Shown: positions 33,937-39,299 of the stretch, one piece after another
How positions within the stretch are numbered: the first letter of the stretch is position 1
Layout of the letters: every line of letters starts with the position of its first letter
Origin: Desulfobacterales bacterium
GTDB taxonomy: Bacteria; Desulfobacterota; Desulfobacteria; Desulfobacterales; JAHEIW01
DNA length: 40,117 nucleotides
Direction of reading: 5' to 3'
Assembly: GCA_030066985.1 (NCBI GenBank)
Contig: JASJAN010000048.1
Coordinates: 1 to 40,117, forward strand
Notes under the pieces: generated by a model
Database searches by the model: none
The model's input: the letters and a program-made list of their open reading frames with translations, nothing else
Told to the model about the DNA's origin: nothing
Made by a program: the position numbers and the translations under genes

Positions 33937-36297
33937 TCAAAAGGTGTCATGCTGTGTTCTGGCAATGATCTCCTCCTGATGGTCCACATCCAGATCCACA
34001 AAATAATCGCTGTAGCCGGCCACCCTGACCAGCAGATCACGATAATCATCAGGCGCCTGCTGGGCTTTGCGCAAGGTGGCCGAATCGATGATATTAAACT
34101 GGATGTGATGCCCGTTGAGATTGAAGTAGGTTCGGATCAGATGGCACAGCTTTTCAATACCGTCTTCATCTTTGAGGACATCGGGCAAAAATCTCTGATT
34201 TAAAAGCGTCCCACCGGATTTAACCTGATCCATCTTGGCCAACGATTTGATGACCGCTGTCGGACCATTGCGATCTGCACCATGCGACGGAGAGGTACCG
34301 TCTGAAATTGGCAATCCCGCCAGCCGTCCGTTGGCAGACGCGCCCAACATTTTCCCGAAGTACACATGGCAGGTTGTTGACAGCATATTCAGATGATATG
34401 TCGTGCCTTTGGTATTGGGCTTACCGTCAATGGCTGCGAAAAGATCGGCGTAAATCCTTCTCATGAGCATATCGGCCGCCTCATCATCATTGCCGAAAAA
34501 GGGGGTTTTGTTCAGCAACCGCAGGCGCAGCGCCTCCTGACCGCTAAAATTTCCCTGAAGGGCGGTCAGCAATTCATCCATGGTAATCGTCTTGTCTTCA
34601 AACACATGCTTATTGATGGCCGAAAGGCTGTCGGTCACCGTACCGATGCCGCAGCATTGAATATAATTGGTATTATAACGCGGCCCGCCATTGTAATAGT
34701 CCTTCCCGTTGGTAATGCAATCGGCAATGACCACCGAGAGAAATGGTGCCGGGGCATATTGGGCATACATCCGCTCGATGTAGTTATTGGTTTTGATTTT
34801 ACGATCAACCACGAAATTTAGTTGCTTGGCAAAGGCCTCATAAAGCCCATCGAAATCTTCAAACGCTCTGGGATCTCCGGTCTGCAATCCGACGGTTTCG
34901 CCGTTCAGCGGATTGGCTCCATTGTTTAAGGCCAGTTCCAAAATTTTAGGAACATTCAAATAGCCGGTCAAAATATAGGCTTCTTTACCGAAAGCGCCGG
35001 TTTCAATACACCCGCTGCATCCGCCTTCGCGGGCATCCTCCAGGGATTTGCCGGTCCGGATTTGCTCCATCACAACTTCATCAGCATTAAACACCGAGGG
35101 GTAGCCGTAGCCTTTACGAATCACCCGCGCAGCCGCCTTTAGAAAACGATTGGGCGTCTTATGGCTGATTTGCACATTGCTGCCCGGTTGCAACAAATGC
35201 AGCTCATCGACTGCTTCCAGCATAATGTAAGAGACGTCATTGACACCATCAGAGCCATCGATTTTCAGGCCGCCGATATTGATGTTTGTAAAATCATTGT
35301 AGGTGCCGCTTTCCAGCGCAGTAACCCCCACTTTGGGTGGCGCCGGATGGTTGTTAAATTTGATCCAGAGGCATTCGATCAGTTCTTTGGCACGTTCACG
35401 GTCCAGCGCATTGTCAGCCAGATCCTTTTCATAAAAGGGGTGCAGATGCTGATCCAGATGGCCCGGACTCATGGCATCCCAGCCGTTGAGTTCGGTAATG
35501 GTCCCCAGATGTACAAACCAATACATCTGAAGCGCCTCCCAGAAATCGCGCGGGGCACGGGCCGGCACACGGCGACAGATACCGGCAATGCGTTCCAGTT
35601 CTTCTTTGCGCTCCGGATTTTGCTCTTTGGCGGCCAATTCCAGTGCCAATTCAGCGTGGCGCTCGGCAAATATGATGGCCGCATCACAGGCAATCTCCAT
35701 GGCCTTGAGCTCTTCGGCTTTATCGGCGGCCTCCGGATCATTCAAGAAATCCAGCCGTTCAAGACTGGCAGCGATGTCCGCCTTAAAATCCAGCATGCCT
35801 TTACGATAGATCACCCCATCTAGGGTGGTGTGTCCCGGGGCGCGTTGTTCCATAAACTCGGTAAACGCCCCTGCCTTATAAGCCCGCTTCCAGTCTTCCG
35901 GCACCTGACCAAATACCCGTTCTCGCATAGTGCGTCCGGACCAATAAGGAATGACCGTTTCTGCATAGACCTGCAAGGCTTCATCAGGCACCGCATAGCG
36001 CGTCATATTCCTGGAATCCAGAATCTTCAGGTCTTCTTCACTGTGGCAGGTCAGCTCAGGGAACGTCGACACCGCCTTGGGGTATGGCCCGCGTTCACCG
36101 ACGATCAGTTCGTCATCACCGATGTAAATGGTCTTTTTCTCACACAGGTTTTTAAAATTTAAAGCGCGCAAAACGGGTACTGAATATTTTCCCTCATTTT
36201 CTTGATAAAATTCGGTGACCAGCAAGGCCCGTTCTGCCGATATGCAGGGCTGAGCGCTGAAGCTTTGTTCGCGCAGTCGGGATATTCTGTTGTTCAT
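33937..36297 (-). CDS. hypD: Glycyl radical enzyme, trans-4-hydroxy-L-proline dehydratase type
   Basis: This 786-residue glycyl radical enzyme is predicted to dehydrate trans-4-hydroxy-L-proline to pyrroline-5-carboxylate. The glycyl loop is RVAGYSDYF with G761, and the radical cysteine/acid pair is C430/E432 in GGCSGCIETGAFG. Recalled active-site residues of Clostridioides difficile HypD (F152, H160, D278, S334, F340, C434, E436, Y450) all fall here at a constant offset of -4: F148, H156, D274, S330, F336, C430, E432, Y446. That argues against choline, glycerol, propanediol or isethionate lyases. The ATG follows AGGAGG by nine bases; this binding site lies within the last codons of the activase gene, five bases upstream, so translation is coupled. 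No proC is in the window. Confidence 0.85.
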   Translation of the reverse strand: MNNRISRLREQSFSAQPCISAERALLVTEFYQENEGKYSVPVLRALNFKNLCEKKTIYIGDDELIVGERGPYPKAVSTFPELTCHSEEDLKILDSRNMTRYAVPDEALQVYAETVIPYWSGRTMRERVFGQVPEDWKRAYKAGAFTEFMEQRAPGHTTLDGVIYRKGMLDFKADIAASLERLDFLNDPEAADKAEELKAMEIACDAAIIFAERHAELALELAAKEQNPERKEELERIAGICRRVPARAPRDFWEALQMYWFVHLGTITELNGWDAMSPGHLDQHLHPFYEKDLADNALDRERAKELIECLWIKFNNHPAPPKVGVTALESGTYNDFTNINIGGLKIDGSDGVNDVSYIMLEAVDELHLLQPGSNVQISHKTPNRFLKAAARVIRKGYGYPSVFNADEVVMEQIRTGKSLEDAREGGCSGCIETGAFGKEAYILTGYLNVPKILELALNNGANPLNGETVGLQTGDPRAFEDFDGLYEAFAKQLNFVVDRKIKTNNYIERMYAQYAPAPFLSVVIADCITNGKDYYNGGPRYNTNYIQCCGIGTVTDSLSAINKHVFEDKTITMDELLTALQGNFSGQEALRLRLLNKTPFFGNDDEAADMLMRRIYADLFAAIDGKPNTKGTTYHLNMLSTTCHVYFGKMLGASANGRLAGLPISDGTSPSHGADRNGPTAVIKSLAKMDQVKSGGTLLNQRFLPDVLKDEDGIEKLCHLIRTYFNLNGHHIQFNIIDSATLRKAQQAPDDYRDLLVRVAGYSDYFVDLDVDHQEEIIARTQHDTF

Positions 36298-36302
36298 CAG
36301 TG

Positions 36303-37211
36303 CTATCCTCCTATTTTAACCGGCAAGCCGGTTTGGGAAAGCCAACCGGCAACGGTGTTCAAATGTTCGTCGCTGGGGCGCTGCATATCCGCTGGTATAC
36401 ATTCCAGTCCCAGACGGCCGTATTTTTCCCGGGCGGAATTGTGAAAAGGCAGAATCGCGATATGGTCAATCCCGGACAGTGCCGCCACAAATTCAGCGGT
36501 TCGATTGATATTGTCAACATCATCATTGATGCCGGGAATCAGCGGTATGCGCACCTGAATGCGGGCTTTATTTTCGGACAGCAGTTTCAAATTATCGAGA
36601 ATCAGCCGATTGGATACGCCGGTAAAATCGCGGTGTTTGGCCACATCCATAAGCTTGATGTCATACAAAAACAAATCTGTTTTTTGGGCCACTTTCAGCA
36701 GCAGCTCAGCATCTGCATACCCGGTCGTATCCACCGTGCGATGAAGATCCAGATGGCTGCAGGCGTCAAGCAGGTCCAGCAAAAAATCAGGTTGCATCAG
36801 AGGCTCACCGCCCGAAAACGTGACCCCGCCGCCCGATTGATCATAAAAAGCGGTATCTTTTTCGATTTGTCGGACCACTTCGGCAACGGTCACCTTACGG
36901 CCCACAAATTCAACGGCTCCAGATGGGCATTGCTCGGCACAGGTTTGACACAGGTCACAGTTGGCCGTATCGGAATCCATTCCATCAGCTGTCTCGACTA
37001 TAACGTTCTGGGGACAGATTTGAATGCATTCTCCACAGCGTACACAGCGCTCTTGCCGATAAACACGCTGGGAGGCAACGGATATGCCTTCTGGATTGTG
37101 ACACCAGCGGCATGCCAGCGGACAGCCTTTAAAAAACACGGTCGTCCGAATGCCCGGTCCATCATGAATCGCATATTTTTTAATATCAAAAATGACGCCT
37201 TCGGTCATCAT
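36303..37211 (-). CDS. Glycyl radical enzyme activating protein (HypD activase)
   Basis: This 302-residue radical SAM enzyme installs the glycyl radical on the adjacent dehydratase. The N-terminus IFDIKKYAIHDGPGIRTTVF and the cluster motif CPLACRWCHNPEG (C-x3-C-x2-C) define the PflA-type family. An inserted ferredoxin-like domain with two 4Fe-4S motifs (CVRCGECIQICP and CDLCQTCAEQCP) is typical of activases for HypD-, choline- and glycerol-type enzymes. VTFSGGEPLMQPDFL follows. ATG at 37211 is five bases after AGGA and gives the family N-terminus; an in-frame TTG at 37274 coincides with a likely -35 box and is rejected. The gene precedes hypD in the same transcript, with five bases between them. 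Confidence 0.92.
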   Translation of the reverse strand: MMTEGVIFDIKKYAIHDGPGIRTTVFFKGCPLACRWCHNPEGISVASQRVYRQERCVRCGECIQICPQNVIVETADGMDSDTANCDLCQTCAEQCPSGAVEFVGRKVTVAEVVRQIEKDTAFYDQSGGGVTFSGGEPLMQPDFLLDLLDACSHLDLHRTVDTTGYADAELLLKVAQKTDLFLYDIKLMDVAKHRDFTGVSNRLILDNLKLLSENKARIQVRIPLIPGINDDVDNINRTAEFVAALSGIDHIAILPFHNSAREKYGRLGLECIPADMQRPSDEHLNTVAGWLSQTGLPVKIGG

Positions 37212-37252
37212 CCAAATCCTGCTTAAAAATTCGGTCTGATGTTTAAAATTAT

Positions 37253-37274
37253 GCCCGGTGACTTGAAAAGTCAA
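37253..37274 (-). promoter_or_regulatory. Candidate promoter and palindromic operator of the hypD operon
   Basis: On the minus strand TTGACT (37274-37269) is followed after 15 bases by CATAAT, which ends just beyond this interval. A perfect inverted repeat, TGACTT-GAA-AAGTCA (37259-37273), overlaps the -35 box and is a good operator candidate. It lies in the gap shared with the divergent ABM-domain gene. Confidence 0.45.
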
Positions 37275-37794: not shown

Positions 37795-38844
37795 TTAGAC
37801 AATGCGCACGTGGGGCTTATCGGCAGCAACAACTTCACCGACCTTGACGGCTGTTTCGATTCCCGCTGCTTTTAACTGCTTGATGAGCGCATCGGTTTGC
37901 GCGGCGGGCAACACCAGCAAGAGACCGCCGGAGGTCTGGGGATCGAACAATAGGTCCTCCTCAGCGGCGGACCGCCGCGTTGTCATCTCCCAAGCGTTAG
38001 CCGCCAATTTGCGATTGGCCTTGTTACTGCCGGTGGTTTCTCCTTTTTGATACATCCGCAGCGCATTGGGGTAAAAGGGAAGGTTTTCGTAGATGAGATC
38101 AATTTGAACATCATTGCCGCGGGCCAACTCGAGCGTATGCCCCACAATTCCAAACCCGGTCACATCGGTGCAGGCATGCACTTCAAAATTGAGGGCCACT
38201 TCAATGGCGTTGCGATTCAAAGCCGCCACCTGGGGCAAAATGGATTCCAGTTCTGCGTAGGGCAATTTACCGGAACGATTGGCGTTAAACAGCACGCCCG
38301 TCCCCAGAGGTTTGGTCAGAACCAAGTCGTCACCCACTTGAGCACCGCAGTTGGTCAGAATGCGATCTGGATGAACACGGCCGGTAACTGCCAAGCCGTA
38401 TTTCGGTTCGTTATCATCCACGGAGTGCCCACCGGCCATGGATGCCCCTGCTTCGAGGACCTTGGCACTGCCGCCCCGCAAGATCTCAGCTAAAAAACTC
38501 AGATCTAGCTTTTTAGATGGAAACATCACCAAATTCAGGGCAGTCAGCGGTTGGCCGCCCATGGCGTAAACATCAGACAGAGAATTGGCCGCTGCAATCT
38601 GGCCGAACCAGTAAGGATCATTTACCGGTGGGGTAATATAGTCCACCGTGCTGATCAAGGCGATCTCGGGTGAGACTTGATACACGGCAGCATCATCCAT
38701 GGTATCATATCCTACCAGCAGATTTGGATCCTCTGAGGCATCCAGCCCCTTAAGCGCTTCCGACAGCTCCGTCGGACCGATTTTGGCCGCTCAGCCGCAG
38801 GTGCGCGAAAGGCCCATGAGGGTTTTTTTCTTTTTGAAAAACAT
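37795..38844 (-). CDS. selD: Selenide, water dikinase with in-frame UGA (selenocysteine SelD)
   Basis: This enzyme makes selenophosphate from selenide and ATP, the selenium donor for selenocysteine and selenouridine. Reading from ATG at 38844, the frame gives T-C-G-UGA-A-A-K at residues 15-21. The UGA (38791-38793) sits exactly at the catalytic Cys/Sec position (C-G-C/U-x-x-K family motif) and the rest of the frame is open for 331 further codons. The protein is 349 residues with Sec18. Downstream motifs are standard: TVDYITPPVNDPYWFGQIAA, AMGGQPLTALNLVMFP, GGHSVDDNEPKYGLAVTGR and SGGLLLVLPAAQ. A stem-loop suited to be a bacterial SECIS follows the UGA. If UGA is not decoded, only an N-terminally truncated, inactive protein from an internal ATG (38700) would result. 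Confidence 0.93.
38759..38793 (-). promoter_or_regulatory. UGA codon and candidate SECIS stem-loop in selD
   Basis: After the UGA (38793-38791) there are 14 bases, then TCCGAC (38776-38771), the loop GGAGCT (38770-38765) and GTCGGA (38764-38759), a perfect 6-bp stem. The distance, the short stem and the G- and U-containing apical loop fit bacterial SECIS elements bound by SelB. Confidence 0.75.
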
Positions 38845-39254: not shown

Positions 39255-39299
39255 AAACCCGCAATCCCCGGGTGAGCACAAAATAGGGATTGCGGGTTT
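39255..39299 (-). terminator. Strong intrinsic terminator after the PilY1-like gene
   Basis: AAACCCGCAATCCC (39255-39268) and GGGATTGCGGGTTT (39286-39299) form a perfect 14-bp stem. Read on the minus strand it is followed by TTTTTTATTATT. It lies about 20 bases after the stop of the minus-strand PilY1-like gene. Confidence 0.9.

Follow-up and report, generated by a model that had tools for sequence, protein, structure and literature searches.

A selD gene with a predicted selenocysteine codon and a conserved SECIS-like hairpin in a Desulfobacterales bacterium

The selD gene and its in-frame UGA

The window, that is, the whole 40,117-nt stretch of Desulfobacterales DNA that was analysed, carries a gene for selenide, water dikinase (selenophosphate synthetase, SelD) whose frame is broken by a single TGA and closes at a TAA stop (Table 1). 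The protein obtained by reading through this TGA scored 362.1 bits against TIGR00476 (SelD; cut-off 125), and its matches to PF00586 and PF02769 were both above cut-off. The genes of the two nearest relatives aligned with it across the full length and in the same frame, with 86-87% identity. A SelD tree was built without L001 (a duplicate of the window), L099-L109, rows short of codon 18 or of fewer than 280 residues, and identical proteins; in this tree, the window gene adjoined L003, titled uncultured Desulfobacterales, and L002. The same tree placed the SelD genes of Nitrospirota-labelled bins (L012, L015, L017, L022, L026, and L038) among those of Desulfobacterota, for which transfer between phyla and binning error are candidate explanations.

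Other genes were noted in the window. Positions 33937-37274, near selD, encode a trans-4-hydroxy-L-proline dehydratase (HypD glycyl radical enzyme; NF043068 above cut-off) and a radical SAM glycyl-radical activase that matched TIGR02494 above cut-off and the HypD-specific model below cut-off. Part of a PilY1/PilC-like pilus-tip protein lies near the contig end (39320-40099; both family matches below their cut-offs), and a protein encoded at 582-1121 presumably resembles an IS3-type integrase, judging from its sequence. The terminator-like hairpin upstream of selD would fit a gene transcribed on its own; four terminator-like sites were counted in the region, compared with a mean of 2.7 in shuffles.

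Table 1. Features of the selD locus, in window coordinates
Feature	Position	Strand	Basis
selD, selenide, water dikinase (selenophosphate synthetase), 349 codons, one in-frame TGA	37795..38844	-	TIGR00476, PF00586, PF02769
TGA codon 18, predicted selenocysteine at the active-site position	38791..38793	-	Alignment to PDB chains, relatives' codons
Predicted SECIS hairpin: stem 38776-38771 with 38764-38759, loop 38770-38765 (GGAGCT)	38759..38776	-	Perfect 6-bp stem
Truncated 301-aa ORF from ordinary gene calling, without the active site	37795..38700	-	Standard ORF call
Terminator-like hairpin that follows the PilY1-like gene, upstream of selD	39257..39273	-	Pattern match only

The TGA is codon 18 and stands in the residue context R-T-C-G-U-A-A-K. 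In alignments with the solved SelD chains PDB 2yye and 3u0o, U18 falls on a Cys and K21 on a Lys; we take this Cys to be the catalytic residue, and the conserved Lys three residues on likewise. A sequence-only reading of the window had placed the in-frame TGA at the Cys/Sec position of SelD, and it had also argued that ordinary gene calling loses the first 48 codons together with the active site. Both statements hold: the standard call begins at codon 49, and the gene model is corrected here. The positions given in that reading were all found to be right.

A start at Met49 is what this standard call gives, and it would make the 301-residue form the functional SelD and leave the upstream part untranslated. 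We regard such a start as very improbable, given that the active site precedes Met49, that relatives resembling the window gene keep the protein sequence of codons 1-17 (K-K-T-L-x-G-L-S/A-R-T-C-G), and that the Met49 codon encodes Ser in one relative checked (L021).

A lone in-frame TGA in one assembly could be a sequencing error or a nonsense mutation, that is, a Cys codon turned into TGA in a broken selD, and an error of this kind had been raised in the sequence-only reading as well. However, the same TGA occupies codon 18 in 75 of the 77 relatives' genes, from other assemblies, which rules out a sequencing error; the other two genes (L080 and L081) carry TGT. These genes come from the best 80 of 145 loci, among which L013, L021, L058, and L059 are short of codon 18 or masked there. 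The 76 loci that reach the codon yield 77 genes because L029 holds two, and a few loci share an assembly (e.g., L046 and L048). Across the same order, exactly one TGA was found in 148 of the 150 SelD matches listed, the remaining two beginning at residue 39 or 40. This search covered 194 genomes and returned at least 150 matches, the place of the TGA being checked in the fetched loci only, and a match at E <= 0.001 was present in 186 of the 194 genomes, some of these matches being only weak.

The broken-gene explanation also sits poorly with the substitution pattern, which indicates that purifying selection acts both before and after the TGA. Comparison of selD with its two nearest relatives gave a pS of 0.48 and a pN of 0.077-0.088 over the whole gene, and a pN of 0.025-0.049 in codons 1-17. 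Moreover, this is the sole SelD above cut-off in a genome that has selA, selB, and tRNA-Sec. Since pN is far below pS and the TGA is kept in relatives, selD looks functional rather than broken, and we consider a pseudogene or an error highly unlikely. Within the genus of the window genome, another genome (G172, 79% complete) has as its sole match a SelD of a distant lineage, 44% identical, unlike two other members of the genus, which carry the 86-87% identical form; candidate explanations are that the distant gene replaced this form, that one of two copies was lost, or that the genome is incomplete.

The hairpin downstream of the UGA

Bacterial SECIS elements, as defined by the rule used in bSECISearch, are hairpins that lie just downstream of the UGA and have a G near the start of the apical loop. 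In selD, the arms TCCGAC and GTCGGA form a perfect 6-bp stem that begins with the 15th base past the UGA, at the position given in the sequence-only reading, and 20 nt separate the UGA from the loop, whose GGAGCT sequence follows the rule. Taken alone, this hairpin is unremarkable and constitutes weak evidence. The single-sequence fold of 54 nt had a z of -0.96, with 36 of 200 shuffles equally stable, and of the window's 1554 TGA triplets, counted over both strands, 64 (4.1%, selD's included) have a 6-bp hairpin of Watson-Crick pairs placed loosely as in a SECIS. The exact offset combined with a 6-base loop was found for selD's TGA only. At gathering thresholds, no Rfam family was matched anywhere in the window.

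The hairpin was next compared among relatives. Stem pairing was counted in 60 of the 72 distinct 42-mers (the window's included), those from relatives that are 58% or more identical; the remaining 12 carry a hairpin elsewhere by eye. Pairing was observed in 98.6% of the 360 cells, compared with 97.0% in shuffles, and none of 500 shuffles reached the observed value. The five unpaired cells correspond to the outermost pair, lost in L020, L024, and L104, to pair 21-32 in L024, and to pair 22-31 in L038. Sliding the 3' partners lowered pairing to 17.5-49.2%. Two stem pairs were changed on both sides, from C-G to U-A in L055 and from A-U to U-G in two sequences; this number of pairs was reached by 1 of 500 shuffles, while the corresponding three cells and the stem covariation score were each reached by none of 500. 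Against covariation stand five further pair types, equalled in 62 of 500 shuffles, and the control slid by +1, in which two pairs are likewise changed on both sides; one stem pair is invariant and hence uninformative. All six pairs occur at selD's offset in 52 of the 76 TGA genes (window included), the rest belonging mostly to distant lineages.

Bias in synonymous codon choice was likewise concentrated around the hairpin. In a set of 56 rows (the window plus 55 genes from relatives with at least 58% identity, near-copies kept), codons 23, 24, 25, 27, 28, 29, and 30 made up 7 of the 12 most biased among 326 codons, the other five being far from the hairpin and all Ser or Arg. For example, Ser28 was TCG in 53 of 53 rows with Ser (background of 21%), Pro24 was CCG in 54 of 54 rows with Pro (background of 40%), and Gly23 was GGT in 94% of 54 rows (background of 24%), while codon 26, in the loop, was unbiased (rank 171 of 326). 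Between the window gene and its two nearest relatives, pS was 0.10 in codons 19-30, which offer only about 10 synonymous sites, versus 0.51 in codons 31-349. Judged from these alignments, the comparative signal for a SECIS hairpin is well beyond chance, and we accept the predicted element as real because of this comparison among relatives, fold energy alone not showing it.

By eye, distant SelD lineages (L117-L127 and L060-L079) display a different hairpin nearer to the UGA, and a lineage of about 50% identity carries the hairpin AGCCC-GGTC-GGGCT. From these sequences, the SECIS seems to have been moved or rebuilt between SelD lineages.

The closest known counterparts of the window gene are the Sec-type selD genes of Deltaproteobacteria, which have the UGA at the catalytic position and differ from it in nothing essential, only by sequence divergence. 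The selD of the Olavius symbiont Delta 1 (L010), for instance, is 73% identical, shares the TGA codon, and has all six stem pairs. Cys-type SelD proteins (E. coli, PDB 3u0o, and those of L080 and L081) share the family and the active-site alignment, but have a Cys codon where the window has TGA; in L080 and L081, the hairpin is absent at the window's place, with 2 and 1 of the 6 pairs, respectively. Selenoprotein SelDs are listed for several Deltaproteobacteria, e.g., Syntrophobacter fumaroxidans and Desulfotalea psychrophila, in Table 3 of PMC1794560. PMC4561486 reports that Sec occurs in 19% of the SelD genes found in its reference prokaryotes, in every case at one and the same position, and that misannotation of selenoprotein genes is the usual situation. 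Against this background, the window selD is unsurprising. Sec-type SelD is thus already well known, and the window gene is an ordinary further case.

Selenocysteine and pyrrolysine genes in the same genome

The window genome (5.07 Mb in 81 contigs, 97.8% complete, 2.9% contamination) was searched for the rest of the selenocysteine machinery. The sequence-only reading had predicted that selA, selB, and selC must accompany such a selD, and the genome indeed encodes all four sel genes, with selA (C21; 614 bits, cut-off 268), selB (C5; 376 bits, cut-off 242), and tRNA-Sec (C19; 75 bits, cut-off 47) all on contigs other than selD's own (C48). ARAGORN read the anticodon of this tRNA-Sec as TCA (UCA). 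It was the only one of 11 RF01852 matches in the genome to exceed the cut-off. ARAGORN scanned seven loci, namely those of selB and selA and five of the eight that had been fetched for RF01852, leaving aside L087, L088, and the match at C19:63981. The four other RF01852 loci scanned contain Ser, Trp, or Leu tRNAs, and three further RF01852 matches lie within the scanned loci L083, L085, and L090, where ARAGORN called Ser, Ser, and Arg tRNAs. Besides the window's selD, the genome gave three weaker SelD matches that stayed below cut-off; these probably represent other proteins of the AIRS fold.

Other UGA-containing genes, which the sequence-only reading had suggested seeking, were found as well and include molybdopterin oxidoreductases of formate dehydrogenase type. 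One TGA each was present in 3 of the 13 molybdopterin-oxidoreductase matches and in 4 of the 5 FlpD matches of the genome. The TGA contexts read in these genes include C-A-R-L-U-H and C-H-W-U-A-Y, which we take to be typical of formate dehydrogenases and FlpD/MvhD. In the families searched, the reading frames point to at least eight candidate selenoprotein genes.

Read-through of TGA, which several of the genome's genes show, would also be expected if UGA had been reassigned to a sense codon genome-wide, as in codes 4 or 25. Further frames of the window also run through a TGA. Against such a reassignment, TGA ends 10 of the 30 window ORFs picked as the main ones, tRNA-Sec and SelB are present, and TGA occurs at one Sec-like place in the other genes read. 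Because TGA also serves as an ordinary stop, UGA recoding looks local, and we give a genome-wide reassignment even less credence than a broken gene or a start at Met49.

The same genome also contains pyrrolysine genes. A segment of contig C24 (83155-89999; L146 and L162) encodes a tRNA-Pyl (CUA), pylS, and pylB, the PylS C-terminal-domain protein scoring 325 bits (cut-off 178) and PylB 476 bits (cut-off 348). Reading the contig around pylS located a TAG-bearing gene some 3 kb upstream. It encodes a dimethylamine methyltransferase (TIGR02368; 503 bits against a cut-off of 369), has its single in-frame TAG as codon 359, and is followed by a gene for a B12-binding protein. MtmB (PF05369) had no match in the genome, and none of the nine genome matches to MttB (PF06253) contained an internal stop. 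On the strength of these gene sets, the organism appears to use selenocysteine and pyrrolysine alike, the 21st and 22nd amino acids. Marine Deltaproteobacteria with a Sec-containing SelD and pyrrolysine machinery are described in part of PMC8318568. According to that part, Deltaproteobacteria-bbl likewise has selA, selB, tRNA-Sec, a Sec-type selD, and pyl genes in one genome, but the methyltransferase described there is one for trimethylamine, whereas the TAG-bearing gene found here is a dimethylamine methyltransferase.

Proposed decoding of selD and its consequences

Taken together, these results support the view, held in the sequence-only reading, that selD is a selenoprotein gene; we put at about 0.97 the probability that it is an ordinary bacterial one whose UGA codon 18 is read as selenocysteine. 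From the known mechanism, we infer selenocysteine insertion, SelB binding, and catalysis as follows. The selD mRNA would carry the SECIS hairpin 15-32 nt past the UGA, where SelB with Sec-tRNA(Sec) would recognise it, allowing selenocysteine to be inserted at codon 18 and translation to continue to the TAA. The resulting 349-residue SelD, with Sec at the catalytic position occupied by Cys in other SelDs, would convert selenide and ATP into selenophosphate, which SelA would then use to form Sec-tRNA(Sec). Since the genome has a single SelD above cut-off and a genome search for selenouridine synthase gave 0 matches, the SelD product most likely serves selenocysteine synthesis, including its own.

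No Cys-type SelD copy was seen in the window genome, and its single SelD above cut-off is of the Sec type, so that making selenocysteine seems to depend on an enzyme in which selenocysteine is already required. An earlier suggestion, in PMC1794560, is that the Sec trait may be maintained for SelD, supporting itself and selenouridine synthesis. A text search for autocatalytic SelD found no paper in the collection covered, which says little. Among the matches listed for the order, 18 of the 194 genomes had at least two SelD matches (e.g., G058, G025, and G001), and 17 of these 18 had at least two TGA-bearing SelD matches; these counts, like the 148 of 150 above, were made by hand from the order-level list. 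One relative's locus (L029) holds two Sec-type selD genes in tandem (L029:1666-2688 and L029:2979-3998).

The organism is a likely Sec-decoder with several candidate selenoproteins. More speculatively, and in our view doubtfully, the dependence of SelD on its own product could form an obligate loop that acts as a selenium-dependent switch with memory and could underlie the second SelD copies; if such a loop exists, cells that lose SelD in low selenium would restart poorly.
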